Positions 6,755 through 53,697 of a stretch of DNA of 64,000 nucleotides are shown one piece after another. The notes beneath the pieces are model-generated. The model was not told where the DNA came from and made no database searches. It saw only the letters and a list, made by a program, of their open reading frames with translations. Made by a program: the position numbers and the translations under genes. The stretch is from Rhizobium sp. Q54. Lineage in GTDB: Bacteria; Pseudomonadota; Alphaproteobacteria; Micropepsales; Micropepsaceae. The stretch lies in assembly GCA_945860165.1 (NCBI GenBank), contig CAMAPL010000010.1, positions 1 through 64,000 on the forward strand. The letters run 5' to 3'. Numbering within the stretch: position 1 is the stretch's first letter; every line of letters begins with the position of its first letter.

Positions 6755-7381
6755 CTAATTTGCCAGTTTTTGCAGGGCTGAAAGCTCGGCGCGGACCCGC
6801 TCCATGTCATAGGCGTAAATCAGCCTCTCCTTGCCCGCCTCCCTGTAGCCGAAGGTGATGCCGACCAGCCGTCCGGGGCTGTCCAGCACCGGACCGCCGG
6901 AAAAGCCCGGTCCCGCAACATCCGCGCGCCGCCGGTCATTAGAAAAGATGAAATAGCTCGCTGCGGTGCAATCCTAGCATCGCAAAATCTCGCGCACCAC
7001 GCCGTGCGCGACACGCAAGTCGCCGCCGCCACCCTGACCATAGGCGATCACCGCGCCGCCAACTTCCACGGGTGCGGGCTCCGGCGGCTGGCTGCGCGAT
7101 ATGCGAAAGAACATCAGGTCGTAATCGCGCCGCACGCCGATCACGCTCTTGGGATCGACCAGGTTGGCATTGTGCGCATTGGTAACGGCGATGCCGTTTG
7201 CTACCACCACCGCCGCCCCGATAGCGGAATCGATGCCCAGATGGGTGCGCGCCTGCAGTCGTAGATAGGCCTGCGCGATTCGCGGTTCCGCGATGCGAGC
7301 CACAGGAACCTCCGAAGAAGCGCAGGCAGCGGCAATCAGAAGAAGCGAAAGAAACGCAAAACTAGAAGGGGATCTCGTCAT
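6755..7381 (-). pseudogene. Trypsin-like serine protease interrupted by an in-frame TAG
   Basis: Read through, this frame encodes 208 residues: a lipoprotein-like N-terminus (hydrophobic stretch ending LLIAAAC), the catalytic histidine in TNAHN (about residue 70), the aspartate in RDYDLM (about 88) and the nucleophile in GFSGGPV (Ser161). A TAG at 6974-6976 (codon 136) stops translation before the serine, so the product would lack its active site. The frame stays open and protease-like after the stop, down to a TAG at 6755-6757. The ATG at 7379-7381 overlaps the end of ssb by 20 nt. A sequencing error is possible; otherwise this is a recent nonsense pseudogene. Confidence 0.75.
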
Positions 7382-7814
7382 CCATCTCGTCACGCTGGAA
7401 GCTGGCCGGGGCTTCATTGGTGCCGCGTCCGCCGCCGCCAAAGCCGCCCTCACCGCCGCCGCTGCGGCCATCCAGCATCACCATGGTGCCGTTGAAGCGG
7501 TTCAGCACGATCTCGGTGGAATATTTTTCGGCGCCGTCCTTGTCGGTCCATTTGCGGGTCTGCAGTGCGCCTTCCAGATAAACCTTGGCGCCCTTCTTCA
7601 GATACTGCTCGGCGACCTTGGCCAAATTTTCATTGAAGATCACCACGCGGTGCCACTCGGTCTTTTCCTTTTTCTCGCCGCTGGCCTTGTCTTTCCAGCT
7701 TTCCGACGTGGCGACCGAAAGATTGACCACCGGCTCGCCGGACGTCATGCGGCGCACCTCCGGGTCCTTGCCCAGATTGCCGACCAAAATCACCTTGTTG
7801 ACACTACCCGCCAT
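7362..7814 (-). CDS. ssb: Single-stranded DNA-binding protein
   Basis: Coats single-stranded DNA during replication and repair and recruits partners by its tail. The OB fold starts at [15 protein letters not shown] (residues 5-19). A glycine-rich linker ([17 protein letters not shown]) follows near residue 120, and the protein ends with the conserved acidic tip DDEIPF. At 150 residues it has a normal length. The final codons overlap the start of the downstream protease pseudogene; the stop is TAG. Confidence 0.97.
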
Positions 7815-7984
7815 GCTCGTCTCCGTTACGTTGCCGGGACGTTAGACGCCCGCGCCTGCCCGCGCCATCAATCCGGCTGTTGCCGCCTGTGGACAGGCTT
7901 AGCAATAGCATTGTTCTCTTTTTGTTCCAATGGCGTTTTGCCCCCCTTTCCGGCGATAAATACGCGGCGCTGGCGAGCGGGTTC

Positions 7985-9457
7985 ATGCCCTTCAATTCCT
8001 ATCCTTATTTCATCTTCCTGGCGGCGGCCGTGCTGGGCTATTGGCTGCTGGAAAACCGCACCTTGACGGGACGGCGGGTGTTCCTGCTGCTGGCCTCCTA
8101 TGCCTTCTATGCCTGGTGGCGGGCGGACTTCCTGCTCCTACTGATGGGCTCGACCCTGGTCAATTACATGATCGGCCGCGAGATCGAGCTGCGCCGGGCG
8201 CGGCAGGCGGATCGCCGGATATTCCTGATCGGCGGGCTGATATTCAATCTGGGCCTAATCGCCCTGTTCAAATACCAGACGCTTTTCGTCACCACGGCGA
8301 GTGACCTGCTGAACATCGGACTGCCGGTGTCGGAGTTCTTCCTGCCGCTGGCGATCTCCTTCTTCACCTTCGAGCAGATCAGCTATCTGGTGGATGCGGA
8401 CACCGGCAAGACGCGCAATTATTCGCTGCTGGATTACGCCCTCTTCGTCGCCTACTTCCCGCACCTGATCGCCGGACCGATCGTGCGGCACAATGACCTG
8501 ATCCCGCAATTTGTCGCCAAGCGCACCGCCCGCGCCAATGACCTGGCCGCCGGCATCACCCTGTTCACCATCGGCTTGGCCAAGAAAACCCTGATCGCCG
8601 ACAATCTCGCGCCCTTTGCCGACACGATTTTCAATGCCGCGGGGCGCGGCACGGCGCTCGGCCTGACCGACAGCTGGCTCGGCACGCTCTTCTTCAGCTT
8701 CCAGATCTATTTTGATTTCTCGGCCTATTCCGACATGGCGCTGGGTTCGGCGGTGATGCTGGGCATCCGCCTGCCGGTCAACTTCCACTCGCCCTATAAG
8801 GCGACCAGCATCATCGAATTCTGGCGGCGCTGGCATATCTCGCTGTCGGCCTTCCTGCGCGACTATCTCTATATTCCGCTGGGGGGAAATCGCGGCAGCA
8901 GGGCGCGGCGTTACCTCAACCTCTTCATCACCATGCTGCTGGGCGGCCTCTGGCATGGCGCCAGCTGGACCTTCATGCTGTGGGGCGGACTGCATGGCCT
9001 ATATCTGGCCATCAACCACGCCTTCCGCCATGTCACCAAAGGCGTGACGCCACCCGCCATCTGGCGCCTGCCGCTGCATGTTCTTTCGGTTTTGCTGACC
9101 TTCGCGGCCACCAGCCTAGCCTGGATCGTGTTCCGCGCGCAGGACCTGGCCAGCGCCCGCAATGTGGCAGGAGGGCTGCTGGGCCTGGGTGATTCCGCCA
9201 TCGTCAGCTTTTCACCCCTGGCGGCGGTGACACTGGCGCTGCTGTTTGCGATCGTGTGGTGGATGCCCAACAGCATGCAGATCATGTGGCGGCACAATCC
9301 CGCCCTGCCCTCGCCTTACGCCCGCGATCCGGTCACGCCCGCGTCGCGCCTGGCCTGGCAGCCGACGCGGCTGCAGGCCTGCGCCTATGGCCTGCTTTGC
9401 ATCGTCGCAATCCTGGCCTTGTCAAATCTCAAGCCCTTCATCTATTTCCAGTTCTGA
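7985..9457 (+). CDS. MBOAT family membrane O-acyltransferase (AlgI-like)
   Basis: A 490-residue polytopic inner-membrane protein predicted to move acyl (usually acetyl) groups across the membrane to an extracellular polysaccharide. Family landmarks are the N-terminus MPFNSYPYFIFL, GPIVRH, FSAYSDMALG, FWRRWHISLS followed by YIPLGGN, and the conserved histidine in LGGLWHGASW. A longer frame opens at 7880, but the ATG at 7985 gives the usual AlgI-type start. The SGNH-fold partner begins 4 nt downstream, so the pair forms a two-gene unit. The target glycan is not identifiable here; no alginate genes are present. Confidence 0.9.
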   Translation: MPFNSYPYFIFLAAAVLGYWLLENRTLTGRRVFLLLASYAFYAWWRADFLLLLMGSTLVNYMIGREIELRRARQADRRIFLIGGLIFNLGLIALFKYQTLFVTTASDLLNIGLPVSEFFLPLAISFFTFEQISYLVDADTGKTRNYSLLDYALFVAYFPHLIAGPIVRHNDLIPQFVAKRTARANDLAAGITLFTIGLAKKTLIADNLAPFADTIFNAAGRGTALGLTDSWLGTLFFSFQIYFDFSAYSDMALGSAVMLGIRLPVNFHSPYKATSIIEFWRRWHISLSAFLRDYLYIPLGGNRGSRARRYLNLFITMLLGGLWHGASWTFMLWGGLHGLYLAINHAFRHVTKGVTPPAIWRLPLHVLSVLLTFAATSLAWIVFRAQDLASARNVAGGLLGLGDSAIVSFSPLAAVTLALLFAIVWWMPNSMQIMWRHNPALPSPYARDPVTPASRLAWQPTRLQACAYGLLCIVAILALSNLKPFIYFQF

Positions 9458-9461
9458 ACCC

Positions 9462-10475
9462 ATGGAAAAAAACCGCTACGCTTTCTGGTTTCTGGGCACG
9501 GTGGCCTTGGGCATCGCTGCGCTGATGGGATTCAACTGGGCCGTGGGCGCCTACATCCTGAATCATCCCGCCGGCGCCAGCGTCCAGACCCTGGCCGGCT
9601 TCGAACGCGCCCTCAAACCCGTCTGGCTGGCACAGATTCGTCCTGAACTGGTCTTTGTCGGTTCCAGCCGGGTGCGCGACGGCTTCGATCCCGTCCTGAT
9701 TGATCCGGCGCTGAAAGTGAAAAGCTTCAATTATGGCGCGTCCAGCATGACGCCCTATGAGGCGCGTCGCTTTGCGCAGGATGCGCTGGCGCAACCGTCC
9801 GTCAAACAGGTCGTGGTGTCGCTGGATGCCTTCACCGGAAACGGCGGACCGGGCGAAGCGCTGCCCAGCTTCGATGAAACGCGTCTGGCAGTGACGCCGG
9901 ACGGTGCGCCGACGCAGCGCCGCGCGCTTTGGCTTTTCACTACCCGCTTCCTGAGCGGCGGCGCGCTGGGGATGAACGCGCTGAGCGTTTATGCCCTGGC
10001 CCGGCTGAAGACGCATGAGACGGCTGCCGACCGGCCCGACATTTTCAATGCATATAGCCACATGACCGGGGCCGTGATGCAGCGCGATCTCGCCTATCGC
10101 CGGACGCGGACCCTGACGATGGGCTCCGGACCGGCGCGGGAATTCTCAACCCTGCTGGCCAGCGCCTGTGACGCCAATGCGCGCCTGATTCTGTTCTTCC
10201 CGCCCGACCATATGGCGATTCAGGCGCGATATCGTGAGGGCGACGCCGCGGCGCTGGATGCTTTCAAACAGACGGTGCGCAACACGGTGGCACGCCACAA
10301 CGCCCGCTGCGCGTCAAAGGTGGTGATGTTCGATTTCCTCGGCCCCAACACGCTGACGACAGAGGCGCTGCGGGACGGCCGCAGCGCCAGCTATGTCGAT
10401 CTGGTGCATTTCCGCCCCCCAGCTGGCCTGTGGCTGCTGGAGAAAATGGGCGTGGGCTTGCCGCGACTGCGTTAG
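9462..10475 (+). CDS. SGNH/GDSL-like membrane-anchored acyltransferase partner
   Basis: A 337-residue protein with one N-terminal transmembrane segment (about residues 8-32) and a periplasmic domain. Two motifs resemble an SGNH active site: GSSRVRDG with Ser68 and the C-terminal DLVH with Asp313 and His316. This arrangement matches AlgJ/AlgX- or DltD-like proteins that take acetyl groups from an MBOAT partner and place them on a polymer. It directly follows the MBOAT gene (4 nt gap, same strand), which supports joint function. Overall similarity to a named family was judged only by motifs, so the specific role is inferred. Confidence 0.75.
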   Translation: MEKNRYAFWFLGTVALGIAALMGFNWAVGAYILNHPAGASVQTLAGFERALKPVWLAQIRPELVFVGSSRVRDGFDPVLIDPALKVKSFNYGASSMTPYEARRFAQDALAQPSVKQVVVSLDAFTGNGGPGEALPSFDETRLAVTPDGAPTQRRALWLFTTRFLSGGALGMNALSVYALARLKTHETAADRPDIFNAYSHMTGAVMQRDLAYRRTRTLTMGSGPAREFSTLLASACDANARLILFFPPDHMAIQARYREGDAAALDAFKQTVRNTVARHNARCASKVVMFDFLGPNTLTTEALRDGRSASYVDLVHFRPPAGLWLLEKMGVGLPRLR

Positions 10476-10732
10476 GGGGTCGTGCTGGGGGTAGGCACGG
10501 CACAGGACGAGCCGCAACCGCCCTTGCTGTCAACCATGGCCAAGGCGATGGCCATAGCGCCACCAACGACCACAGCGACGCCCAGGACGATCAGAAGATT
10601 GGGATTGCCACGCTGAGCCTCCTGGATTCCAGCCGGTTTTCCGGGAGACAGCGCCGAAACCTCCGCTGCCAAGGCTTGCTATCCCATCATGGCGGTAGCA
10701 ACGGCTGCGATTATCATTTTCCGGAAATTCAT
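10472..10732 (-). pseudogene. Small secreted/membrane protein with a TAG inside its signal peptide
   Basis: Reading from the ATG at 10730-10732, which has a good purine-rich ribosome site (GAAGGGG), the frame begins MNFRKMIIAAVATAMMG, then TAG at 10679-10681 (codon 18), then QALAAEVSALSPGKPAG. Together this is a textbook signal peptide with an ALAA cleavage site, followed by a hydrophobic segment (LLIVLGVAVVVGGAMAIALA) and a short tail with two cysteines. The amber codon would block synthesis unless an internal start is used. It converges on the SGNH gene, overlapping its stop by 4 nt. The function is unknown. Confidence 0.6.
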
Positions 10733-10919
10733 TATGGGTCCCCTTCTGCAAATACGCGCCTTTGGCAGCGATAATAGGTTGTTCCGGTTGAATAATTCAG
10801 AAAGCTAACCGCTTCCGGTTATTAGGCCGCATCCCTTATTATTTGCAAATGAACAATGATGACTTTGTTGCCGTTGTTCTCTTTTTGTTTTCAGGACCAG
10901 AAACGGTTATGAGTGACCC

Positions 10920-11771
10920 ATGGACTTCCTGACACAGATACTCTTGCCTGACCGCCTCACGGCCGTGGTGGATGTCGGCGCCAACCCGATCGACGGCGAT
11001 CCACCCTACAAGGCGATGCTGGCGGCGGGGCTGTGCGAGGTGCTCGGGTTCGAGCCGCAGGCCGAGGCGCTGGCGCGACTGCAGAAGATGGCCGGCCCGC
11101 GCGAACGTTACCTCCCCCATGCGCTGGGCGATGGAACTTCACGCACCCTGCATGTCTGCGACCTGGAAGGCATGACCAGCCTGCTGGTTCCCGACCCCGC
11201 CCGGCTGGCGCTTTTCAATTTGTTTCCTATATGGGGGGGGGTGAAAAACACCATCCCCGTTTCCTCCAGGCGCCTCGATGATATTTCCGAAATCACGCAG
11301 CTGGATTTCCTCAAAATGGATATCCAGGGTTCCGAGCGCGATGTGCTGACCCATGGCAAGGCCAAGCTGGCCGATGCCGTCGCGATCCAGACCGAGGTCT
11401 CCTTCATCACCCTGTATGAAGGTCAACCGACCTTGGGCGAGATGGATGTGATGATGCGGGAACTTGGCTTTTTGCCACATTGTTTCGCAGAACTGAAAGT
11501 GTGGCCCCTAGCGCCAACCATCGTGTCGAGCCAACCCAACAAGGGCCTGCGCCAGCTTTTGGAAGCCGACCTAGTCTATGTGCGCGACTTTACCCGGGCC
11601 GAAAATATGAGCCCCGAGCAGTGGAAGCATCTCGCCCTGATCGCCCATCATTGCTACGGCTCAGTCGACTTGGCCGCGCGGGCCATCAACATGCTCACCC
11701 AGTTAGGCGTAGTGCCGGCCAACGCCGCCGAACATTATCTCTCCAGCCTTGCCCCCAGAAAAGCCAATTGA
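10920..11771 (+). CDS. FkbM family methyltransferase
   Basis: A 283-residue S-adenosylmethionine-dependent methyltransferase. The N-terminal VVDVGANP is the cofactor-binding motif I, and [16 protein letters not shown] is the FkbM signature block; [10 protein letters not shown] sits between them. FkbM proteins methylate sugars or other small acceptors, often in surface glycans. The gene carries a nine-G tract at 11233-11241 that reads in frame here (Trp-Gly-Gly-Val). Its stop overlaps the uvrA start (TGATG), so the two may be co-transcribed. The acceptor substrate is unknown. Confidence 0.85.
11233..11241 (+). repeat. G9 homopolymer tract within the FkbM coding region
   Basis: Nine consecutive G bases lie in the middle third of the methyltransferase gene, coding in frame in this copy. 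Such tracts are prone to slipped-strand length change, which here would switch the reading frame off. Whether it varies cannot be told from one sequence. Confidence 0.95.
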
Positions 11772-14662: not shown

Positions 14663-14665
14663 GCG

Positions 14666-15520: not shown

Positions 15521-15526
15521 GCGGCC

Positions 15527-15778
15527 TTAAAATTCATCAAACGGGCGCAGATCGTCGAACACCGGCGCCTGGGGCGCTGTCGCGTCATGCCACAGGCCCA
15601 TGGCCCAGGCGGTCAGGGCGGCGGCGGCGGGAAGCTTGGCGAGGCCTATCAGCGGCTCGGTCACCAGGGCCAGTTTTCGGCGCGGCACAAAGGCGGTGAC
15701 GCCGATGACGGCAGCCGCGAGCAGGCCCGCGCCCAGCGCCAGCTTAAAATAATTGGTTCCCTTGCCCTCGGCCATCAT
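15527..15778 (-). CDS. Small membrane protein of unknown function
   Basis: An 83-residue protein with an N-terminal hydrophobic helix (LALGAGLLAAAVIGVTAFV, residues 13-31) followed by basic residues and a second weakly hydrophobic stretch, then an acidic tail ending FDDLRPFDEF. No family is recognised. It lies 6 nt upstream of the polytopic membrane protein gene and is oriented the same way, so a shared function is plausible but unproven. Confidence 0.6.
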   Translation of the reverse strand: MMAEGKGTNYFKLALGAGLLAAAVIGVTAFVPRRKLALVTEPLIGLAKLPAAAALTAWAMGLWHDATAPQAPVFDDLRPFDEF

Positions 15779-17503: not shown

Positions 17504-17557
17504 TTCCGCGAAACCGGGTACTGCTCCGTTTGTTGTCAAAACAGCAACAAAACGGAT

Positions 17558-17946
17558 TTGATCAAGGACATTCCCCTCGAACTTTCCTTCCACAACATGG
17601 CGTCTTCCGACGCCCTGAAGGCGGCGGTGCGCGAACACGTCAACAAGCTGGAACAGTTCCACGACCACATCATCGGCTGTCGGGTCGTGCTGGAGCTGCC
17701 GCACAGAAGCCAGAAGGCCAGCGGCAATCCGCCGGATGTCCATATCGTGATCCGTGTGCCGGGCAAGGAAATCGTGGTCAGTCGCGAACTGTCGCATGAC
17801 GGACACAAGAAGGCAGCCACCGACGCCTATGCCGTTCTGGATAGCGCATCCTAGTCGCCCAGAAGCAGCTCAAGGACCATCGCCGCATCAGCCATGGCGA
17901 TGTGAAACACAAGTCGGCTGACCCCGGCGAACTGGATATCGTCTAG
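17558..17946 (+). pseudogene. hpf: Ribosome hibernation promoting factor, C-terminus frameshifted
   Basis: HPF/RaiA proteins bind the small ribosomal subunit and promote dimerised, inactive ribosomes. The first 98 codons from the TTG at 17558 give the family domain (PLELSFHNMASSDALK, VNKLEQFHDHIIGCRVVLE, IVIRVPGKEIVVSRE) but stop at TAG 17852-17854. In the next frame the sequence continues VAQKQLKDHRRISHGDVKH to a TAG at 17944-17946, which matches the final helix and HRRxxxGDVK tail of alphaproteobacterial HPF. One missing base near 17850 explains both halves. The truncated product may still fold; a sequencing indel is also possible. Confidence 0.72.
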
Positions 17947-19513: not shown

Positions 19514-21127
19514 TTAGATCGCCAGCTTGCGGGGGCGCCGGATATTAAGCCAGGCAATGACGATCAGCCGCGTCACCATCACCGATGTGTAGAAAGAGGT
19601 GATGATGCCGACGCCCAGCGCCACCGCGAAACCCTTGATCATGCCGGTGCCGAGCTGGAAGAGGATCAGCGACGCGATCAGATGGGTCATGTTGGCGTCA
19701 ATGATGGTCGCCATGGCGCGGCGGAATCCGGTATCGATCGAGGCCAGCATCGAGCGGCCATTGCGCTGTTCTTCCCGAATTCGCTCATAGATCAGGACAT
19801 TGGCGTCCACCGCCATGCCCATGGTCAGCACAATACCGGCGATGCCGGGCAAGGTCAGGGTGGCCCCGAACATAGTCAGAACAGCCAGCAACAGGACAAT
19901 GTTCATGACCAAAGCGACGTTGGCGAACAGGCCAAAAATGCCATAGCGCAGGATCATGAACAGCGCCACCATGGCGAGGCCGGCAAACGCGGCATAGCGG
20001 CCGGCCTTCACCGAGTCCGCGCCCAGTTCGGCGCCGACGGTGCGCTCTTCGATGATGTTGAGCGGCGCCGGCAGCGCGCCGGCCCGCAGCAGGATGGCGA
20101 GATTGTTAGCGCTGGCGGTGGTGAAGCTGCCGGTGATCTGCCCCGACCCGCCCAGAATGGGGCTGATGATGTTCGGGGCGGTGATCACTTCCTGGTCCAG
20201 GACGATGGCGAAGCGGTGATTGACGTTTTCCTTGGTGACCTCGCCGAACTGGCGCGCACCGACGCTGTCGAAGCGGAAAGTCACCACCGGTTCGCCGGTC
20301 TGCTGGTCGAAACCGGTGCCAGCATCGGTAAGGCGGTCGCCAGATACCATCACCCGGCGATGCACCGCGATCTTCTGGACGGGAAGATTCTTGCTCTGCT
20401 CGTCTCTCATCATCGGAAGGATTTCGCTGCCGATCGGCGGGACCGTGGCGTTGGGATTGGCCTGCTCGTCCACCAGCTGGAAGGTCATCTTGGCGGTCTT
20501 GCCGAGAATTTCCTTCAACTGGCCGGGGTCCTGCAGACCCGGCACCTGCACCAGGATGCGGTCCTCGCCCGAACGTTCGATGCTCGGCTCGCGGGTACCC
20601 AGTTCGTCGATGCGGCGACGGACCACTTCAATGGACTGATCCAGAACCTGCTGGCGCGTTAGCGTCTTGAAGGCATCGGTCATGCGCAGCACGAAACCGC
20701 CATTGCCCGGCTCGGACAGGTCGTACTGCTTGCCGCCCACTGCGAGGACGGAACTGCCCATCACCGGATTGAGACTTTGCAGCAAGGTGCGCGCTTCCTC
20801 GATGCGTGTCGGATCGGTCACCCGCACCGAGACAATGTCGTTACGCGTATTCAGGTCGGTGAGCGGAATGCGCGCCTTGCGGAAGGCGGCGCGGATGTCA
20901 CCGACCATCGCCTCGGCGCGGTCGCGCGTTACCTGGTCGAAATCCACCTGCAGCAACAGATAGGAACCGCCCTGCAGATCCAGGCCGAGATTGACCGTGT
21001 GGCTGGGTAGCCATTTGGGGAACTTGGCGAGGACCTTGTCAGGCAGCGCATTGGGCAGCGCGATAAGAATCCCGCCCAGCAGAATGACGGCGGTGAGGAT
21101 GCGTACCCAAAGGGAAACCTGCAGCAC
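19514..21127 (-). CDS. secD: Protein translocase subunit SecD
   Basis: An inner-membrane partner of SecYEG that uses the proton gradient to help protein export. The 537-residue chain has an N-terminal membrane helix, a large periplasmic domain (LGLDLQGGSYLLLQVDFDQV near residue 46), and a C-terminal RND-like bundle of helices with AVDANVLIYERIREE and TIIDANMTHLIASLILF. It ends after the last helix with a short basic tail, so SecF is not fused to it. yajC lies 7 nt upstream. No secF follows downstream. Confidence 0.96.
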   Translation of the reverse strand: MLQVSLWVRILTAVILLGGILIALPNALPDKVLAKFPKWLPSHTVNLGLDLQGGSYLLLQVDFDQVTRDRAEAMVGDIRAAFRKARIPLTDLNTRNDIVSVRVTDPTRIEEARTLLQSLNPVMGSSVLAVGGKQYDLSEPGNGGFVLRMTDAFKTLTRQQVLDQSIEVVRRRIDELGTREPSIERSGEDRILVQVPGLQDPGQLKEILGKTAKMTFQLVDEQANPNATVPPIGSEILPMMRDEQSKNLPVQKIAVHRRVMVSGDRLTDAGTGFDQQTGEPVVTFRFDSVGARQFGEVTKENVNHRFAIVLDQEVITAPNIISPILGGSGQITGSFTTASANNLAILLRAGALPAPLNIIEERTVGAELGADSVKAGRYAAFAGLAMVALFMILRYGIFGLFANVALVMNIVLLLAVLTMFGATLTLPGIAGIVLTMGMAVDANVLIYERIREEQRNGRSMLASIDTGFRRAMATIIDANMTHLIASLILFQLGTGMIKGFAVALGVGIITSFYTSVMVTRLIVIAWLNIRRPRKLAI

Positions 21128-25464: not shown

Positions 25465-26531
25465 ATGAAACGGGTTTCAGGACATCATATTTCCGTGCGG
25501 GTCCGATCCGCGCTGGACGCGCTGGACGCCCAATTGTCGCGGCTCGGCCGCGTCGGCTCCACAGCCGCCCTCACCGCCATGGCGGTGAGTTTTGCTGTGC
25601 CACTGCATTTCCTGGTGCGCACGCTGGAGGGCCTACCGGTTCAGCCCCTCTCCATCCTCAATCTCTCGCTGGAAATCGTGATCGTCGCGGCGCCGATGAT
25701 ATTCTATGCCCGCGATGTCATCGCCCAGCTCAAAAAGAGCCGTGCCCGGCTGGACGAGATGTCCCGCCGCCTCGCCATCTCGGCCGAGCAGGCCCAGCAT
25801 GCCAAAAAGGCCAAGTCCGCCTTCCTCGCCAATATGAGCCATGAACTACGCACGCCGCTGAACGCCATCATGGGCTTTTCCGAGGTGATGAAGGAGCAGC
25901 ATCTGGGGCCGGTGCACAATCCGCGCTATCTCGGTTATGCCGCCGACATTCATTCCAGCGGGTGCCATCTGCTGAGCATCATCAACGACATTCTCGACCT
26001 GTCGAAGATCGAAGCGGGGAAAATGTCCCTGGAAAGCGCCGAGGAATTCCCCCTGCGCCACTCGCTGGGAGGTTCGCTCGCCATGGTCGCCGAACTGGGC
26101 CAGAAATATGGTGTGCGCGTCGTCGGCGAACTGCCGCCCGAACATGTACGTGTGCTGGCGGTGGACCGCATGATCCGCCAGATCATGATCAATCTGTTTG
26201 GCAATGCCATAAATTCACCCCCGCCGGCGGCAGCGTGACGGTCAGCTGCGCCGCCAAGGCCTATGGCGGCTATGCCGTGACGGTGCGGGATTCCGGCATC
26301 GGCATGACGGAATAGGAAATTTCCCAGGCCCTGACGCCGTTTGGGCAGATCGTAAACAAGCTAACCGCCACCCATAACGGCACTGGGCTGGGTCTGCCGC
26401 TGGCCAAAGCGATGCTGGAACTGCACGACGGCACGCTGGAAATCTCCAGCTAGCCGGGCCACGGCACCCACATTGTGCTGAACTTCCCGGCCAGCCGCAT
26501 CCGCAACGGTCGTGCCGCGGCTGCTGCGTAG
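25465..26531 (+). pseudogene. Sensor histidine kinase, PdhS/DivJ-like, with a frameshift and two in-frame TAGs
   Basis: The intact first part (257 codons) has two N-terminal membrane segments (about residues 33-52 and 66-82), and the H-box SHELRTPLNAIMGF with His126, then GPVHNPRYLGYAADIHSSG typical of the alphaproteobacterial PdhS/DivJ group. A missing base at about 26211 shifts the frame in the N-box (NLFGNAI-KFTPAGG). The ATP-binding domain continues in the next frame (DSGIGM, GTGLGLPLAKA) but holds TAG at 26313-26315 and 26451-26453, in GMTE-stop-EIS and ISS-stop-PGHGT. Without the kinase domain the product cannot autophosphorylate. Confidence 0.85.
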
Positions 26532-32163: not shown

Positions 32164-32814
32164 TTAACGGCGCTGCAAATCCGCCAGCAAGCCCTTGATA
32201 AGGCCAAGACTTATCGGCTTTTTTACGACCAGAGCGGCGGCATCGGCCCGGGCGACAAAATCGCGGATGGCGCCTGGCGAGCGTTCCAGGCTGACGATCA
32301 TGTGGCTGACCACGCTTTCGGGAACCTGAAGCTGGCGGTCCGCGAAAAGCTTGACCGCCAGGCCCATCAACAACGCGTCATCAGCCGCCCAAAGATCGAA
32401 GGCCAGAAGGGCGCGGCTGCGCGACATCAGGTCGGGCAAGGTCAGGGCGAATTTGCGCGGCCAGTCGGCCGGTGGAACCTGCGATGTCAGCAGCAAGGGC
32501 GTGCCGCGTTCCAGCAAGGCGAACAGCGGCGCTTCGGGTACGCCGGCCGCGACATTCTCCACCAACAGCGCGCCGGCGGGAATATCAGCGGCGAGCGACG
32601 AGGCTTCCACCACCTGCGCCCCGACGCGCCCGGCCCAGACGGCCGCAAGATGCGACTTGCCGCTGGCCGGCGGTCCGATCAGGGCTGCGGACGGCACAGT
32701 CCATTGCGCAAAGGAATCGATAAAGGCAACGGCGCGTTCATTACCCGGCGCGACAATGAAATCGGCGCGGCCAAAAGCGCTCCGCGTCTCCAGCGGCAGG
32801 ACGAGCTGGGTCAC
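32164..32814 (-). CDS. hdaA: DnaA-related regulatory inactivation protein HdaA
   Basis: A 216-residue AAA+ protein related to domain III of DnaA; in alphaproteobacteria it works with the DNA polymerase clamp to switch off DnaA after initiation. The clamp-binding motif QLVLPLE is at residues 3-9, and the P-loop [14 protein letters not shown] at 47-60. The expected Walker B (aspartates after a hydrophobic strand) reads LLVENVAAG, lacking the usual acidic pair. I chose GTG at 32812-32814, which overlaps the stop of the upstream gene; the long upstream frame is a shadow. Confidence 0.88.
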
Positions 32815-35677: not shown

Positions 35678-36264
35678 AGCGCGTCGCCGTTCTGATCTCC
35701 GGACGCGGCAGCAATCTCGGCTCGCTGATCGAGGCGGCAGGCGACAGCTACAAGATCATTCGGGTCATTTCCAATATCGAAGGCGCCGCCGGCCTGGACC
35801 GCGCACAGGCAGCCGGCATTTCCACCCAGCTCATTTCCCACAAGGACAAGAGCCGCGAAGCTTTCGACGCCGAGATCGATGCGGCCTTGCGCGCGGCGGA
35901 TGCGCAGATCGTGGTCCTGGCCGGCTTCATGCGCATCCTGTCCGATGGTTTCGTTCGCGGCTGGGAAGGAAAGCTGATCAACATCCATCCATCCCTGCTG
36001 CCCGCGTATAAAGGCACGCGGGTGCATGAGCGGGTGATCGAGGCCGGGGAAGCCCTGTCCGGTGCCACGGTGCATTTCGTGGTGCCGGAACTGGATGCCG
36101 GGCCGGTGATCGCGCAGGCCAGCGTGCCGGTGCAGCCCGATGAGTCGCCCCAGACCCTGGCGGACCGCGTGCTGGCGGTCGAGCACGCGCTCTATCCTGA
36201 AGTGCTCAGGCTGCTGGCCGATGGCAAGGTGAAATTGCACAACGGGCTGGCCGTCTTCTCTTAG
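35674..36264 (+). CDS. purN: Phosphoribosylglycinamide formyltransferase
   Basis: Transfers a formyl group from 10-formyltetrahydrofolate in the third step of purine synthesis. The start is a TTG overlapping the purM stop (CTTTGAAG), giving [18 protein letters not shown] near the N-terminus. The catalytic block [20 protein letters not shown] includes the active histidine, and [16 protein letters not shown] contains the catalytic aspartate. The length of 196 residues is normal. Its TAG end overlaps the convergent SDR pseudogene. Confidence 0.96.
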
Positions 36265-37091
36265 CCGCCCCCCCAATTTTCGCCGAGATCTCCCACAGCT
36301 TCAGGGCATCGATATCGCTGCGCGCCTCGGCGGTCGGCATGGTGATAGCGCAGTCATAGAAATATTCGCCGGTCACGCACTCCACCACCTTTGACGAGGC
36401 CAGATAGGTAATGGTCTTGGCACCCTCTTCCGGGGAAATGGCGCCGAGCGGCTTGGTCACCTTGAACACCGCGCGCAAAAGTCCCCCCGCTATGATCGCC
36501 GAAGCGAGTGGCGACAAAGCCGGAATGCAGGGCGTTGGCAGTGACGCCCGCAGGCGCGCGCCGCGCCAGTTCGCGGTTGAACAGGATGTTGGCCAGCTTG
36601 GACCGCGAATAGACCGGAAAGCCCGAATAACCCTTCTTGGACTGAAGGTCGCTGAAATCCAGTTTCGCGCCACGATGGGCATTTGACGCCGTGGTGACGA
36701 TGCGCGCGCCGGGCTTGAGGTGCGGCAGCAGAATATTGGTGATGACGAAATAGGCCATGTGGTTGAGCGCGAAGGTCAACTCCAGCCCGTCACCGGTGTC
36801 GTGCCGTGTGTTGAACAGCGCCCCGGCATTGTTGACCAGGACATCGATCCGCGGTTCGCGCGCCAGTTCGGCGCCGACCCGCTTCATTTCCGCCAGGGTC
36901 GAAAGCTCGGCCATGTGCACGCCATGGCCCACGCCCGGACTGGCCTGACGCAGCTTGGCCAGCGTATCGTCCGCGCGCTTCCTGTCGCGGGCGGTGAAGA
37001 CGATCCGCGCGCCCTTTTCCGCCAGCCTTATCGCGGCGACTTCACCGATGCCAGACGTGGCCCCGGTGATGATGACGGTCTTGCCTTCCAT
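36261..37091 (-). pseudogene. Short-chain dehydrogenase (retinol-dehydrogenase-like), frameshifted
   Basis: From the ATG at 37089-37091 the frame reads MEGKTVIITGATSGIGEVAA with the NAD(P) glycine motif, NNAGALFN, and the catalytic YSRSK (VYSRSKLANI). At LHSGFVATRFGDHSGG the frame changes: one extra base beside a six-C tract at 36483-36488 moves the continuation (LLRAVFKVTKPLGAISPEEG and YLASSKVVECVTGEYF) into another frame. The end shows a second problem: ISAKIGG meets a seven-C tract (36268-36274), and one more base would give a TAA at 36261. The catalytic half is intact but the C-terminal half is lost unless these are sequencing indels. Confidence 0.78.
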
Positions 37092-37110: not shown

Positions 37111-38059
37111 CTACGGGATTTTTCGTTCTGGATCGATGCGGAACCAGTAAGTGTAGTCATGGCTGACGCCGTTCACCATAACGCAAGAGATGGACACATC
37201 ATATACCGCGCCAGGCTCCAGGCGCCCTGCCCGGAACTGGATATTGTTGGGCAAGCCATAGCCGGAATTGTCGAACGCCACATCGCTGACGGCCACGACT
37301 TTGCCGCCCCGTTTGCGCATCTCGATTGCCACAGTCGCGTAATCCACATTCCTGTTGGCCAGGAAACTGCCTTGGCTTGCGACAGCGGAAAAGACAGCAT
37401 CGCGCCGTCGCCATAATAGTCCTGCGGATAATCGTGAAAGGGATAAGCCACGAAACCGCCGATGAAATCGGCGCTGTAGGCATCGTCCGGATCACTGATG
37501 CGAATCGCGGCGCCATCTACGGATTCGCCATCCAGAATCCCGGCGACGCGGCCATAGGCGATTTTCTTCAGGAACGGGTCCAGCAGCCAGCGCCAGTGAC
37601 CGATGCCGTCGGGCAGCACGTTGCGCGCGTCGGGCAGCCAGCCCATGACATAATTCATGGGTATCCACGAAGGACAGATAAAGCGAGGCGCCGCCACCAA
37701 AATTTCTGGACTGCGCCGCCTGATGCCCGGCCGGCGTATAGCAATTCCATAACGCGGATGGTGCATGGCTGACCTGCCGGTTGGCGGCGATCATCGGCGC
37801 GATCTGCATCACGCCGGCACCGGCGCTTTCGTCATAGGTGACCGGCGCAAGACTTTGCAGCGCGCGAATGGCATTCATCGTTTCCAGCACCCGGCGCTTT
37901 TGCGGCACCGACAACGCGCCTGCCGTGCAAGCCTTGATGTCGGGCGCAAGGCTGTAAAGCGCGGCGGCCGCGGGCGAAGACCACATCCTGGGCGCCGGAA
38001 GGGCTGGCGCAAACAAGCGTCAGCAGACCGCAAGCCAGCTTGGGACGCATCCTGCGCAT
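37111..38059 (-). pseudogene. CAP/SCP-domain secreted protein with three frameshifts
   Basis: Four consecutive pieces in different frames make one protein. A signal peptide (MRRMRPKLACGLLTLVCA) is followed, after a shift at about 37980, by ACTAGALSVPQKRRVLETMN and NYRL-like CAP sequence (VMQIAPMIAANRQVSHAPSA, ALWNCYTPAGHQAAQSRNF). A shift near 37660 leads to MNYVMGWLPDARN and the CAP hallmark IGHWRWLLDPFLKKIAYG. A third near 37360 leads to VAIEMRKRGGKVVAVSDVAF and a C-terminal beta domain. CAP proteins are secreted and often extracellular; this copy is dead as sequenced. Confidence 0.72.
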
Positions 38060-40500: not shown

Positions 40501-40580
40501 CCCGCGCGAAACTGCTGTTGACCTGGACCGCGCGGCCCAGAAAGATTGACGCCGCCCCATAACAAGAACAGGCAGGTCGC

Positions 40581-41843
40581 ATGGCCCAGGCGCAGCTCTC
40601 CAGCATCATATCCAAGCTGCATCTGCGGCTGATGCCGACCTTGCTGATGATGTATGTGCTGGCCTTTCTGGACCGTGCCAATGTCGGCTTCGCCAAGCAG
40701 GGTCTGGAAGCCGATGCGGGCATTGGCGTTGCCGCCTTCGCCTTCGGCGCCTCCATTTTCTTTATCGGCTATGCGCTTCTCGAAGTGCCGTCCAACCTGA
40801 TCCTGCACCGCGTCGGGGCGCGGGTGTGGCTGGCGCGCATCATGGTGACCTGGGGACTGATCTCGGCGGCAACCGCCTTCGTGGAAGGCCCCACATCCTA
40901 TTACATCGTGCGATTTCTGCTGGGCATGGCCGAGGCCGGATTCTTTCCTGGCGTGATCTATTATCTCACTTATTGGTATCCGGCATCGGCGCGCGCCCGC
41001 TCTGTCGGGATATTCTTTTATGGCGCGCCGCTGGCACTGACCTTCGGCGGACCGTTGTCGGGACAGCTGGTCGCACATGACGCGTTCGGCCTACATGGCT
41101 GGCAAATCATGTTCATCATCGAAGGGCTTGCGGCGTCGCTGGGCGGCATCGCCGTGCTGTTCCTGCTGAAGGACGGGCCGCAAAAGGCGCCCTGGCTGAG
41201 TGACGACGAGAAACAGTTGCTGCAAGCGGAGCTGCAAAAAGACGATGCGGGGCGCGAACATGCCGGCGTGCTGCACACCCTGCGCAATCCCCGGATACTG
41301 TTTCTGGCGCTGGTCTATTTCCTGATACAGGCGGGCTTTTACGGCCTGACTTTTTTCCTGCCCACCCAAATTGCAAGGCTGCTGGGGAAGAATGTGGGGC
41401 TGGAAGTCGGTCTTGTCTCCGCCATTCCCTGGGCCGCGGCGCTGGTGGCGGTCACCGTGATCCCGCGCTGGTGTGATGCGCGCGGCAATGCACGCGGCGT
41501 TGGCGCCTTAGCCCTGGGGGTAGCCGGTTGCGCGCTGGCCGCTTCGGCGCTGACCACCTCGCCAGTGCTGGCGATGATCGCGCTGACCATCGCCGCTAGC
41601 GGCTTGATCGTGGCGCCAGCCATGTTCTGGACCATGCCGACCGCTATTCTCACAGGAGCGGCGGCAGCAGGCGGCATCGGACTGATCAATGCCATCGGAA
41701 ATCTGGGCGGCTTTGCCGCGCCAAACCTGCGCGCGTGGCTGGATGCAGTGTTTGCCAACCACACGGCGGGCCTTTTGGGACTGTGCGTGGTCTGCCTGAT
41801 CGGGGCGTGCTGCTACGCCGTAGCGCCGCGCGCGCCGCGCTGA
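40581..41843 (+). CDS. MFS transporter, anion:cation symporter type
   Basis: A 420-residue polytopic transporter with the usual twelve-helix layout. The N-terminal MYVLAFLDRANVGFAK and FEVPSNL-like LLEVPSNLILHRVGAR blocks match the ACS family, whose members import acidic sugars, phthalates or similar anions. No regulator or catabolic gene adjoins it, so the substrate is unknown. It stands alone between the ABC-F gene and the convergent TPR gene (2-nt gap between stops). Confidence 0.85.
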   Translation: MAQAQLSSIISKLHLRLMPTLLMMYVLAFLDRANVGFAKQGLEADAGIGVAAFAFGASIFFIGYALLEVPSNLILHRVGARVWLARIMVTWGLISAATAFVEGPTSYYIVRFLLGMAEAGFFPGVIYYLTYWYPASARARSVGIFFYGAPLALTFGGPLSGQLVAHDAFGLHGWQIMFIIEGLAASLGGIAVLFLLKDGPQKAPWLSDDEKQLLQAELQKDDAGREHAGVLHTLRNPRILFLALVYFLIQAGFYGLTFFLPTQIARLLGKNVGLEVGLVSAIPWAAALVAVTVIPRWCDARGNARGVGALALGVAGCALAASALTTSPVLAMIALTIAASGLIVAPAMFWTMPTAILTGAAAAGGIGLINAIGNLGGFAAPNLRAWLDAVFANHTAGLLGLCVVCLIGACCYAVAPRAPR

Positions 41844-41845
41844 AT

Positions 41846-42619: not shown

Positions 42620-42629
42620 GCCGCTAACC

Positions 42630-43088: not shown

Positions 43089-43100
43089 TTATAAAACTCA

Positions 43101-43180: not shown

Positions 43181-43184
43181 AGGG

Positions 43185-44681: not shown

Positions 44682-44783
44682 GCTATATCTCCGGGCGGGC
44701 GGTGGAATTGGCGAAAAGCTGAACTCTGATGCTAGTTTAGGTCGAATCCACGCCGACCTCCAAGATAGGGTGCGCCAACAAGG

Positions 44784-45971: not shown

Positions 45972-47059
45972 GCTGGTCCTGGACTCTTTACCGCTATCTG
46001 GCGATGCAATTCCTGATCGGGGTGGCGACGGTCTATGCCATTTTCCTGGTGCTGGCGCTTTCCATCGACATCGTGGATTTGCTCAACCGTACCGCCGGAC
46101 ACAATGTCTCGACCTCGGTCGCCATCGGCATGGCGGTGCTGCAACTGCCCAATCTGGGCCAGAAGATGCTGCCTTTCGCCATCCTGCTGGGCGGGGTTTT
46201 CACCTTCGTGCGTCTGTCGCGCTCGCGCGAACTGGTCGCGACACGGGCGGCGGGCGTGTCGGCCTGGGATTTTCTGATGCCGCCACTGACCGTTGCGGTG
46301 CTGATCGGTGTGTTCGTGGTGACGCTGTTCACGCCGGTATCGGCCCGCATGTTCTCCGAATTCGCCGGTCTGGAAGCGCGTTACGTCAAGGGCCAGGAGT
46401 CCCAGCTGTCCGTCTCGATGAACGGGCTGTGGCTGCGCCAGGGCGACGAGAAACACCAGTCGGTGATCCATGCCCTGCGCGTTGCCCGCCAGGGCGAGCA
46501 TCTGGAAGACGTGGTGGTGTTTCTCTATGGCCCCAGCGACCGGTTCACCGGCCGCATCGATGCCAAGACGGCGCAGCTGCATGACGGTTATTGGGTAATG
46601 AACGATGCCTTTGTGTCGGGCGCGGGCGGCTCACCGGTGAAGCATGCCAGCTACCGGTTGCCCACCACCCTGACGGCGGAACAGATCGTGGAAAGCTCGG
46701 CCTCGCCTGACACGCTGTCCTTCTGGGACCTGCCCGGCTATATCCGCGCCGCGCAGGCGGCGGGCTTCTCGGCGACCAAATACCAGCTTTACCTCTACAC
46801 GCTGTATGCCCTGCCCGCCCTGTTTGCGGCGATGGTCTTCATGGCGGCCAGCTTCTCGCTGCGGTTCGGGCGCGATATCGGCCTTATCAAGGTCATCCTA
46901 CTCAGCGCGGCGACCGGCTTCGGCGTGCTTTTCTTCCAGGACCTCACCAATGTGCTGGGCCGCTCCGGCGCGGTGCCGATCCTGCTGGCGGCAACGGCGC
47001 CGGCGCTGGTGTCTATCCTGATCAGTATGGCCCTCGTCTTCTCGCAGGAGGATGGCTGA
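45968..47059 (+). CDS. lptG: LPS export permease LptG
   Basis: The partner of LptF in the LptB2FG transporter. The 363-residue chain begins MSWSWTLYRYLAMQFLIGV, has the conserved SRSRELVATRAAGVSAWDFL near residue 88 and a periplasmic domain between the first and last helix groups. The final helices end with IGLIKVILLSAATGFG. Overlaps of 4 nt with lptF and 1 nt with lptD show tight coupling. Confidence 0.94.
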   Translation: MSWSWTLYRYLAMQFLIGVATVYAIFLVLALSIDIVDLLNRTAGHNVSTSVAIGMAVLQLPNLGQKMLPFAILLGGVFTFVRLSRSRELVATRAAGVSAWDFLMPPLTVAVLIGVFVVTLFTPVSARMFSEFAGLEARYVKGQESQLSVSMNGLWLRQGDEKHQSVIHALRVARQGEHLEDVVVFLYGPSDRFTGRIDAKTAQLHDGYWVMNDAFVSGAGGSPVKHASYRLPTTLTAEQIVESSASPDTLSFWDLPGYIRAAQAAGFSATKYQLYLYTLYALPALFAAMVFMAASFSLRFGRDIGLIKVILLSAATGFGVLFFQDLTNVLGRSGAVPILLAATAPALVSILISMALVFSQEDG

Positions 47060-49272: not shown

Positions 49273-49384
49273 CGCCGCGCCTTGATTGCAGCGCAAAATT
49301 CTTTATTTTGGCAGCGGGTTAGGGGCGAACGCCGGTTGTCGGCGAGGAATGGTTGTCCCTGCTTTGCGGTCGAAAAAATTGACG

Positions 49385-51082
49385 ATGCGAATTACCAACA
49401 GTCTTTTGCTGGGCGCGACAGCGCTCATCTGGGCCAGCGCGCCGCTGCTGGCCCAGAATACGCGCGCCCCGGCTGTGCCGCCCCTGCCGGCCAAACAGGC
49501 CCAAGCTGCGCCAGCCGCCAAACCGGCACCCCTTCCGGTCCGGGCAGAAAAGCAGGACAGTGCGCCCCCCACGACGGCCGAGATCGCGGCACCAACGACG
49601 GACAATCTGGCCGCGCCCACCGCTGACGATCGTGCACCAGTGGCCGAACTTGCTCCGCCCGCTTTGGCGCCCGTCGCGGCAGCAACGGCGTCCGCCGCCG
49701 CGCCCGTGGCGGCACGGGCGGCTTCCGCCGGGCCGGCAAACGCACCGGTGGCTTCCTCCGCGTCCGTGATACAGGAAGCCAACGCCACCCCGGCGGCGGC
49801 CGAACCGGAAGGCAATCTCGACGATTCCAATTCCATCGTCGCCACGGTGAACGATGAATCGATTTCCGACTATGAGGTGCGCCAGCGCGTGGCGTTGTAT
49901 GTGGCCACCTCCGGCATCAACCAGCAGCTGCCGCCCGAACAGCGCAAGCGCATCCGTGCCCAGATTCTAGAAAGTCTGGAAGCGGAAAAGATTCAGTTGC
50001 AGGAAGCGGTGAAGAAAAAAATCACCGTCAGCCCCACCGAGGTGGACAAGCGCATCAACGCGATGATGGCAGACAACAAATTCACCATCCAGGCGCTGCG
50101 CCAGACCCTGACCGCCGCCGGCGCGAGCGAGGACGCGTTGCGCGCCCAGATCACCGCCTCCATCGCCTGGATGAAAGCGGTGCAGGACCAGTATGGCGAC
50201 CGCGTGAACGTCACGCCCGAAATGTTGGATGCCGAAATGGCGCGTCATGCCGAAGGCGCCAACAAGCCGCATTACCGCGTGATGGAAATCTTCCTGCCGG
50301 TGGACAATCCCGAGCTGGACGGCAAGGTCAAAAAAGACGCCGAGGATGTTCTGGCCCAGCTGCGCCAGGGCGCACCCTTTGGCATGGTGGCTCGCCAGTT
50401 CAGCCAGCATCCCACGGCTGCGACCAATGGCGACATGGGCTGGATCAATGACGGCCAGCTGGCGCCCGAACTGAACAGCACCCTGGCCAAGATGGCAGTG
50501 GGCGCCATGAGCGAGCCTGTCCGCTCCACCGGCGGCTATTACATTCTAGGCTTGCGCGAACGCCAGGAACCGCTGGGCACCAAGATCAACACCAGCCCGA
50601 CCGGCCCCACTGGCCTGGCCGGAACGCTGCCGCTAGCCCGCCTGCTGTTCCCGGTCAATCCACGCGCGCCCAAAGCCGAACTCGACAATGTCATGGCGGT
50701 GGTCGTCCAGCTGCAGCAGCGTTTCAACGGCTGCGCCCCGCTGGAAGAGGTGCACAAGCAGATGAAGGGCACCGTTTACATGAATCTGGGCGATGCCAAG
50801 CTGGCGGAACTCAGCCCGCAGATTCAGAAGGCGATGGAAAATAGCGGGGCGGGCGATGCGGCAGCGCCTTACATGTCGGAGGCGGGCATTGAGCTGATCG
50901 TGCGCTGCGACAAGCGGCCAGAGATCAAGACCGCCTATGTCATGCCGACCCGCCAGGAGGTCGAAGACCAGCTGTTCCAGGGCCAGATTTCCGCCCTGGC
51001 ACGGCGCTATCTGCGTGACCTGAAGCGCGCGTCCAATATCCAGGTGCGCGACGACAGCAAGCCTGATGCCCTCATCCGCTGA
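49385..51082 (+). CDS. surA: SurA-like periplasmic chaperone / peptidyl-prolyl isomerase
   Basis: Escorts outer-membrane proteins such as LptD through the periplasm. I chose the ATG at 49385, which gives a signal peptide (MRITNSLLLGATALIWASAP). Residues about 25-145 are an alanine- and proline-rich linker with little other composition, which is unusual for SurA. The chaperone N-domain follows (NSIVATVNDESISDYEVRQR from about 149), and a parvulin domain near 295-400 (HYRVMEIFLPV, GDMGWINDGQLAPEL). It is the expected gene after lptD; the last 17 nt overlap pdxA. Confidence 0.9.
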   Translation: MRITNSLLLGATALIWASAPLLAQNTRAPAVPPLPAKQAQAAPAAKPAPLPVRAEKQDSAPPTTAEIAAPTTDNLAAPTADDRAPVAELAPPALAPVAAATASAAAPVAARAASAGPANAPVASSASVIQEANATPAAAEPEGNLDDSNSIVATVNDESISDYEVRQRVALYVATSGINQQLPPEQRKRIRAQILESLEAEKIQLQEAVKKKITVSPTEVDKRINAMMADNKFTIQALRQTLTAAGASEDALRAQITASIAWMKAVQDQYGDRVNVTPEMLDAEMARHAEGANKPHYRVMEIFLPVDNPELDGKVKKDAEDVLAQLRQGAPFGMVARQFSQHPTAATNGDMGWINDGQLAPELNSTLAKMAVGAMSEPVRSTGGYYILGLRERQEPLGTKINTSPTGPTGLAGTLPLARLLFPVNPRAPKAELDNVMAVVVQLQQRFNGCAPLEEVHKQMKGTVYMNLGDAKLAELSPQIQKAMENSGAGDAAAPYMSEAGIELIVRCDKRPEIKTAYVMPTRQEVEDQLFQGQISALARRYLRDLKRASNIQVRDDSKPDALIR

Positions 51083-52073
51083 AAGCGGATCAGTGAAAGA
51101 CCGCGCTGAAAGCGAAGTGTTGAAAAAGTCCGCTAAGGGTGAGGCCCCAATCCTCATTACCATGGGCGAACCGGCCGGCATTGGCCCGGAAGTAGCCATG
51201 GCCGCCTTCGATCATTTCGGCGGAAAGATCGGCGCCCACCCCCTGAAGCTGGTGGGCGATACGGCGGTTTTCGCCAGACATAAAGACGCGGTCATTGCCA
51301 CCACAGCGCGCGCGGCGCGTAGCCCGGGCAAGCCGGATGGCGCCAATGCCGCCGCGGTTACACAAGCCATCGAGATCGCCGTCAAAGCCTGCCTGAACGG
51401 CGAAGCGGCGGCTATTGTTACAGCCCCCATCAACAAGGCGGTGCTGAACGGTACCGGCTTTGCCTTTCCCGGCCATACCGAATTTCTCGCCTATCTCACC
51501 GGCGCACGCCGGGCGGTGATGATGCTTGCCAGCAACACGCTGCGAGTGGTGCCCCTGACCATCCACCTGCCGATCGCCGACGTGCCCAAGGCCGTGGACA
51601 AGCTTGCGGTGTTCGAGACCGCCGAGATCATCCTGACGGCGCTGCGCCGCGATTTCGGGATTCTCAACCCGCGCCTGGCGGTGGCCGGGCTCAATCCCCA
51701 TGCCGGCGAAGACGGCGTCCTGGGTGATGAAGACGCGGCGGTGATTGCCCCGGCCATCGCGGCGCTGAAGGCGCGCGGCTTTGCGGTGAGAGGCCCCTTG
51801 TCGGCCGACACGCTGTTCCACGAGGAGGCGCGCAAGACCTATGACGCCGCGCTGTGCATGTATCACGACCAGGCGCTGATCCCGATCAAGACGTTAAGCT
51901 TTTGGGACGGGGTGAATGTCACTCTGGGCCTTCCCATTGTGCGAACATCGCCCGACCATGGCACCGCGTTCGACATCGCGGGCACCGGCAAGGCCGATGC
52001 CCGCAGCATGATCGCGGCGGTGCAGATGGCGGCGGACATTTCTGATTCTCGGGCCGATGTCCGCAATCGATAA
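51066..52073 (+). CDS. pdxA: 4-hydroxythreonine-4-phosphate dehydrogenase
   Basis: Acts in pyridoxal phosphate synthesis, oxidising 4-phosphohydroxy-threonine. The 335-residue protein has a 30-residue polar N-terminal extension before [19 protein letters not shown]. Further family blocks are [18 protein letters not shown] with a metal histidine, [13 protein letters not shown] and [14 protein letters not shown]. It overlaps both surA (17 nt) and rsmA (17 nt). Confidence 0.96.
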
Positions 52074-52896
52074 ATTGCCACCACTGCGAGAAGTAATCGC
52101 GGCCCATAATTTAGCGGCGAAAAAATCGCTGGGCCAGAACTTCCTGCTCGACCTGAACCTGACGGCGAAGATCGCGCGGGCGGCAGGCGCACAGGAAGGT
52201 GGCGTGTTTTACGAAGTGGGTCCGGGACCGGGCGGCCTGACGCGGGCGCTGCTTGCGGAAGGCGCCGACAAGGTGATCGCCGTCGAGCGCGACGCGCGCT
52301 GCCTGCCCGCGCTGGAAGAGGTGGCGCAGGCATGGCCCGGCAAGCTCGACGTGATTTCCGCTGATGCGCTGTCCTTGGACGAAATGGCGATCCTGCCGCC
52401 CGGGGCGCGCATCGCCGCCAACCTGCCCTACAATATCGGCACCGCGCTGTTGATCAAATGGCTGACGGTGGAAAGCTGGCCGCCGCTCTGGGCCAGCCTG
52501 ACCCTGATGTTCCAGAAGGAAGTCGCGCAGCGGATTGTGGCGCAGCCCAGCACCGAACATTACGGGCGGCTGTCGGTTCTGGCGCAGTGGCGTTGCACGG
52601 CGAAAATATTGTTCGACGTCAATCCGCAGGCCTTTGTGCCGCCACCCTCGGTGACGTCCTCAATCGTGCGGCTGGAGCCGCGCAGCGAACCGCTGGCGCC
52701 GGCCAGTCTGACAGACTTGGAAAAGGTAACGGCAGCGGCCTTCGGCCAGCGCCGCAAGATGCTGCGCCAAAGTCTCAAACCGCTGGGCGGCGCAGCCCTT
52801 GCGGAAAAAGCCGGCATCGACCCCACGACGCGGCCGGAAGATCTGGCCGTCGCGCAGTTCGCGGCCCTTGCCCGCGCCTTGGCGCGGCAAGCCTAA
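52057..52896 (+). CDS. rsmA: 16S rRNA (adenine-1518/1519-N6) dimethyltransferase
   Basis: Dimethylates two adjacent adenines near the 3' end of 16S rRNA during subunit assembly. The 279-residue methyltransferase has [11 protein letters not shown] (residues about 24-34), the cofactor motif [14 protein letters not shown] near 55 and the catalytic [11 protein letters not shown] near 125. It ends with a helical RNA-binding domain ([13 protein letters not shown]). Last gene of the lptF-rsmA unit. Confidence 0.97.
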
Positions 52897-52917
52897 CAGC
52901 CCCGCGCCCTGAACTGA

Positions 52918-53697
52918 TCAGCCAAAAATGCTGCGTAGGAGATTGGTGGAACGCGCCACGGGATCGGCGCGGATCGCCCGCTCTTCCACCGCCAGATAAT
53001 AGAACAGTCCGTCCAGGGCCTTGCCGACGGTGAAGTTGATCAGATCAAAACCGCCAGCGGCCTGGCCCAGGAATGGTATCCGGTTGGCCCGATCCTGCAC
53101 CGACTGCAGCGCCCGCATGGCGCCGGCGCCGTTCAGTGTTGAACGCACAATGGGGTGGAAGGAGTCGGTCAGCGAACCGGCGCAGGTACGTCGAAAATAC
53201 TGGGTGACCGAATCCTGCGGCCCGGTGAGAATGCCCCGCGCATCGTCAAAGCTCATGCTGGAAGCCGCGTCCACGAAGATATTCAGCGCCTTGGGCGCGG
53301 CCTGTTCCGCGCCGCGGTTCATCCTGAGCACCAGATCATCGAGCATGCCACTGGCCCCCACCGTGCGCAGCGGCTGGGCAATTTCTTCCAGCGGTCCGGG
53401 CAACGGGATGCGAATTTCCGGATCGCGAAAAAAACCATCCGGCTTGCCGACCTGGCCGATCACGTGGCGCGATGCGACTTTCATCGCATCCTTCAGGCCG
53501 ATGCCGATCTGGTTCTAGCTCAGCGCCGCACCTGCGGGAACGCTGCCTGCGACACCATTCACGGCGCTGCTGCCTGCTCCCCGATTCAGGAAATCATTCG
53601 CTTCCTTCGGCAACCGGAATTGCGCCGATGCTTGCAAAGGCGCCAAGGACAGGATTGCGCCCAAAATCATGCGGCGCGAGCTAGAATTTTCGGACAT
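52918..53697 (-). pseudogene. DUF4197 family exported protein with an in-frame TAG
   Basis: The frame from the ATG at 53695-53697 starts MSENSSSRRMILGAILSLAP with a signal peptide and reads 60 codons to TAG at 53515-53517. It stays in frame afterwards (NQIGIGLKDAMKVASRHVIG, then IRIPLPGPLEEIAQPLR and the LDGLFYYLAVEERAIRADP tail), which is the DUF4197 family. The stop replaces the position where the family motif LS-E/D-xxIxxGLKxAL has an acidic residue. A GGGGGG ribosome-like site precedes the start. The function of the family is unknown; an internal ATG at 53482-53484 could give a signal-less product. Confidence 0.8.

Follow-up and report, generated by a model that had tools for sequence, protein, structure and literature searches.

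Probable young pseudogenes among dispensable genes in a 64,000-nucleotide stretch of the Rhizobium sp. Q54 genome

Why should a bacterial genome rated as 100% complete and 0.3% contaminated carry seven interrupted genes within 64,000 nucleotides? The stretch in question, denoted the window throughout, comprises bases 1-64000 of contig 10 (CAMAPL010000010.1) of the 2.48-Mb genome of Rhizobium sp. Q54, which is assembled in 42 contigs (GCA_945860165.1). The interrupted genes encode a trypsin-like protease, a small signal-peptide protein, the ribosome hibernation protein Hpf, a histidine kinase, a short-chain dehydrogenase (SDR), a CAP-like protein and a DUF4197 protein. We conclude that these are probably real, young pseudogenes that reflect weakened selection on dispensable functions, with housekeeping genes still strongly selected.

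Placement of the lesions and mutation spectrum

The original prediction was that in-frame TAG codons or single-nucleotide shifts interrupt seven accessory genes. Interruptions were found where predicted in 7 of 7 genes, 11 lesions in total (Table 1), and hpf additionally lacks the ATG of its relatives. Housekeeping genes had been described as undisrupted, and this description holds: the reading frame is open in 36 core genes (38.7 kb) and in a further 18 genes of the window (16.0 kb), compared with 4.9 kb for the seven broken genes, the core/non-core split being our judgement from family names. The 11 lesions all lie within these 4.9 kb, with none in the 54.7 kb of other window genes, a split made by the lesions themselves. 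When seven genes are drawn with length weighting, all are non-core by our core list with P = 0.0004 (P = 0.001 for the six genes without CAP), that is, the disruptions are concentrated in dispensable genes. In such draws, the longest broken gene is no longer than 1067 bp with P = 0.002, and among 11 randomly placed lesions, two genes receive at least three each with P = 0.001. Given that short, non-housekeeping genes are broken beyond chance and that two genes carry three lesions each, real inactivation is a better reading than random error. Comparison of 59 window loci with relatives flagged the seven genes and, as the eighth, an MFS gene at 40581; a locus truncated at the end of the window was left out of the judgement. 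The MFS gene was rejected because the flagged stop, at 40560, lies upstream of its open frame.

Altogether, about 186 kb of the 2.48-Mb genome (the window and about 122 kb elsewhere) was compared with relatives. The three nearest, G039, G035 and G041, have genomes of 2.4-2.8 Mb (G039 is 86% complete) within a genus that spans 1.8 to 5.0 Mb, and share 82-86% nucleotide identity with most of the window. In a tree of concatenated codons, the window groups with G039, and G035 groups with G041, with G044 and G046 (genomes of 3.5-3.8 Mb) and G024 outside. A scan for stops and shifts flagged 11 of 169 loci in the present genome, of which closer checks confirmed eight, five of them within the window and three outside it; the same scan flagged 6 of 190 loci in G035, 6 of 183 in G041 and 3 of 115 in G039, where the single verified flag is a GGDEF gene in G041. 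Thus, verified lesions amount to 8/169 here vs 1/488 in the three relatives (Fisher P = 0.0001). The scan under-calls, having missed three lesions, one in the small protein of the window and those in the DUF4197 genes of G039 and G041, where the frame still open had been annotated as a gene. With these three lesions added (the small protein by hand, for a total of nine broken loci here, CAP apart), the comparison becomes 9/169 vs 3/488 (P = 0.0004). The 15 flags in relatives were checked as alignments in three cases and by overlap with called genes only in the other 12, of which five are undecided (C4 21931 and C8 978 in G035; C16 499, C28 74338 and C5 5259 in G041). Flags on tyrS, squalene-hopene cyclase and the frame at window position 32180 in the present genome, and on SufC, an SseB-like gene and a DEAD helicase in the relatives (all our names), were rejected as start-extension or antisense artefacts. 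The density of broken loci is 6/55 in the window vs 3/114 elsewhere (P = 0.06, with approximate denominators), and the window may be richer in broken genes than the rest of the genome.

The mutation spectrum of this lineage is also shifted. At the fourfold sites of 104 genes, the ratio of GC-to-AT changes over G/C exchanges is 1.26 (bootstrap 1.12-1.41), compared with 0.76 in G039, 0.81 in G035 and 0.70 in G041, and GC content at these sites is 0.880 vs 0.907, 0.903 and 0.899, respectively. The claim that real relaxed selection explains the lesions better than random error is supported by these observations together: the lesions fall in dispensable genes and avoid the core, exceed those in relatives and are accompanied by an AT-ward shift, a combination that fits relaxed selection. 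Together with the many long G/C runs described below, the AT-ward shift fits weakened selection in one branch of the clade.

Table 1. Broken genes and long G/C runs in the analysed part of the genome
Feature	Position	Strand	Lesion or content
Trypsin-like protease (PF13365)	6758..7381	-	one in-frame TAG at 6974-6976; frame open on both sides
Small signal-peptide/transmembrane protein (our reading)	10478..10738	-	single TAG close to the signal-peptide end
hpf (PF02482)	17558..17946	+	1-nt deletion roughly 30 codons from the gene end; ATG of relatives absent
Histidine kinase (HisKA)	25465..26531	+	1-nt deletion and two TAGs behind HisKA
Short-chain dehydrogenase SDR (PF00106)	36261..37091	-	1-nt insertion beside a G run
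CAP-like protein	37111..38059	-	three frame changes
DUF4197 protein (PF13852)	52921..53697	-	one TAG
Hybrid histidine kinase (our name)	outside window		frameshift in linker and C-terminal deletion
Conserved 188-aa protein, NYN-type (our name)	outside window		broken
DprA (our name)	outside window		broken
Long G/C runs	11233; 16423; 25454; 36268		G9; G8; G10; C7, respectively

The broken genes and their counterparts in relatives

Whether the same genes are intact in relatives was checked, and open copies exist in close relatives for six of the seven, the CAP-like gene having no counterpart. In the relative-by-relative scoring, these six were rated intact in every relative with the respective stretch, the two exceptions being the small protein and DUF4197 in G041; for the former, direct alignment shows no stop. 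The protease is open in all four relatives with a stretch covering the gene and also in L004, which belongs to G042 (its match list is the same as that of G039). The small protein, for which a Pfam search gave no match, is open in L003, L069, G035, G044 and G046; L069 belongs to G043, whose match list equals that of G035. The histidine kinase is open in 6/6 relatives, and the SDR in 5/5 with a stretch covering the gene and also in G039. The kinase lesions lie in a region that we take to be the ATPase part, and its G10 run is located just upstream of the gene.

The CAP-like gene occupies additional sequence between the SDR gene and ndk, where the relatives have 6-191 bp. Its frame changes were inferred from reading frames alone because there is no relative to align, and its row in the relative comparison is uninformative, the reference used being an unrelated overlapping frame. 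The CAP identity of the product comes from a weak match below the Pfam cut-off. The middle part of the gene has no match in the 68 other genomes of the genus (1 of 69 matches, its own genome), and its source was not found among them.

Two genes point to loss beyond the present genome. DUF4197, a gene detected in just 10 of 41 genomes of the genus, carries an independent frameshift in G039 and an in-frame stop near the N end in G041, and is open in G035 and G024. It is therefore broken in three of four genomes, the present one and its three nearest relatives, each time by a different lesion. As the same gene would hardly be expected to be wrong in three separately made assemblies, its loss of selection is likely real. 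The broken hpf is the only PF02482 match in its genome and covers profile positions 2-72 of 88, with a TTG two codons upstream of the lost ATG position. The family is present in 57 of 69 genus genomes and 44 of the 48 good ones. One other hpf match in the genus (G071) carries a TAG. In the related genome CH-Jul18-205 (L057), hpf is seemingly broken as well, judging by its in-frame TAG and differing length, which suggests repeated loss of this gene.

Two observations concern other parts of the window. Positions 1-6250 are mostly 96-99% identical to G041, compared with about 82% over 9000-64000; identity is lowest near the left end and at 1751-2000, and breaks inside gyrA near 6.2 kb. This tract, which holds an epimerase gene (3018-3887) without a counterpart in G035 and the sister G039, is, on its identity profile, a putative recent interspecies exchange covering most of gyrA. 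The secD gene (19514-21127) has no counterpart in the compared stretch of G035 and is present in other relatives.

Age of the lesions and competing explanations

In three-taxon counts, the ratio of nonsynonymous to synonymous changes (N/S) of the five measurable broken genes is 0.65 on the present branch vs 0.30 in relatives, and that of intact genes is 0.46 vs 0.34, with the branch including the stem shared with G039. Measured against the sister alone, intact-gene N/S is slightly higher here, 0.51 vs 0.46 (P = 0.03), which may be a wider sign of weaker selection. Amino-acid change is faster in three of these five genes, the protease, the second kinase (on C2) and the 188-aa protein. The value for the small protein, which is short and has few synonymous changes, was not trusted. 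With an assumed neutral N/S of 2.2-3.0, the genes would have been inactive for about 5-14% of the terminal branch. The broken genes nearly keep the substitution pattern of working genes and accordingly were inactivated recently.

Several observations weigh against real decay. The dN/dS (nonsynonymous to synonymous rate ratio) comparison, by which relaxed selection was to show itself, gives a divided answer: the rise in three of five genes is set against N/S of 0.74 in six broken genes vs 0.61 in the copies of the sister G039 (P = 0.28), a comparison that includes the DUF4197 gene of G039, itself broken. DUF4197 and the SDR show no acceleration. When all flags are counted unverified, the excess is 11/169 vs 15/488 (P = 0.06), and the relatives carry broken genes, too. 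Single sites may be assembly errors, the lesions having been read from the assembled consensus; G/C runs occur at, or close to, at least two of the frameshifts; and internal stops, particularly when raised in number, are often a sign of poor assembly, according to a recent study (PMC11017572).

The alternative that survives best, still rather doubtful, is strain polymorphism, whereby the consensus caught real but rare null alleles and the population retains the functions. The near-functional substitution pattern is what one would expect of very young or low-frequency null alleles. Up to three lesions in one gene and the faster amino-acid change in three of the five measurable genes speak against it.

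Slightly less probable, and unlikely in our assessment, are consensus errors, where thin coverage, a mixture of strains or miscalled homopolymers in a 42-contig, perhaps metagenomic, assembly would have produced the stops and shifts. G/C runs of at least 7 are indeed about eight times commoner here (13 in 186 kb vs 5 in 546 kb of the three relatives), which, with the frameshifts near such runs and the raised number of internal stops, is the kind of evidence that this explanation calls for. However, six long G/C runs sit within longer called open frames, so that runs are not regularly miscalled; the nonsense lesions are substitutions that involve no change in run length; and both the length-weighted draw of broken genes and the clustering of three lesions in each of two genes disfavor random placement. 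Loss of mismatch repair as the cause of the frameshifts was considered and rejected, the MutS frame being open; MutL was not searched.

That the genes are not broken at all, because TAG encodes an amino acid or the shifts are programmed, is highly improbable: in the six genes with relatives, each of the five nonsense lesions is a TAG, but a stop arising in one step is expected to be TAG about 60% of the time (P of about 0.07-0.11 for 5/5), the TAG sites correspond to different residues in relatives (glutamine in the protease and DUF4197, in two or more relatives each; serine in the small protein, in two; mixed residues in the kinase), and recoding leaves the frameshifts unaccounted for. TAG reassignment was ruled out because TAG ends 46 of 177 called genes and release factor 1 (RF1) is present, along with RF2, the two being told apart by what we take to be their diagnostic PxT and SPF motifs. 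No tRNA genes lie within the window; no genome-wide search for a suppressor tRNA was made.

Under the preferred reading of young pseudogenes, the lesions would be present in the cells and not in the consensus alone. Selection on a dispensable set, comprising the protease, ribosome hibernation, one sensor kinase, one SDR, DUF4197, the small membrane protein and the extra CAP-like gene, may have grown too weak to purge single-base nonsense and frameshift mutations, with housekeeping genes meanwhile kept under strong selection. The cause would be weaker selection, for example, through a smaller effective population. A lineage early in genome reduction, as proposed, is possible. This is a fair hypothesis, best supported by the AT-ward shift; against it, the three nearest relatives are already at 2.4-2.8 Mb, two of them with broken genes. 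The companion suggestion of a long-cultured or host-restricted strain found no support, given the little neutral evolution in the broken genes and the isolate names of the nearest relatives, which, as we read them, suggest lake origin; the nearest named relatives of gyrA are metagenome genomes, including an 'ErkenSummer' bin (L003, in G041). A more specific scenario, which we offer tentatively, is a free-living freshwater lineage at the onset of reductive decay, with an AT-ward spectrum and accessory null mutations going to fixation before much rise in protein-wide N/S or any shrinkage of the genome relative to the sister.

Significance and known systems

If real, the decay makes the four genomes, the present one and its three nearest relatives, a series for ordering the early stages of gene loss, in which it could be seen whether mutation spectrum, selection on proteins or gene content is the first to change. 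DUF4197, with three different lesions in four genomes, would be one gene let go in parallel, and hpf is notable as a family kept by most good genomes of the genus, the sole copy of which is broken here.

Young pseudogenes as such are already well known. Streamlined genomes, for their part, are usually compact and contain few pseudogenes. Unlike in these, pseudogenes are visible here, and selection seems weaker rather than stronger. The likeness to streamlined planktonic freshwater bacteria such as Methylophilaceae (PMC6794327) lies in small genome size, with 2.48 Mb here and 2.4-2.8 Mb in the three nearest relatives, although genomes of up to 5.0 Mb occur in the genus. Spurious pseudogenes created by assembly (Cooley and Wright 2024, PMC11017572) resemble the present case in that internal stops and shifts exceed those of near relatives. 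We would expect such spurious pseudogenes to follow gene length, whereas the lesions described here avoid long and housekeeping genes. The closest parallel is with the young pseudogenes of Salmonella (Kuo and Ochman 2010, PMC2916853), the youngest of which are reported to be quickly removed. That work covers a set of Salmonella genomes, and the present analysis a single genome of an uncultured-type lineage, compared over about 186 kb; the two cases share recent disruptions, dispensable genes and little neutral divergence.

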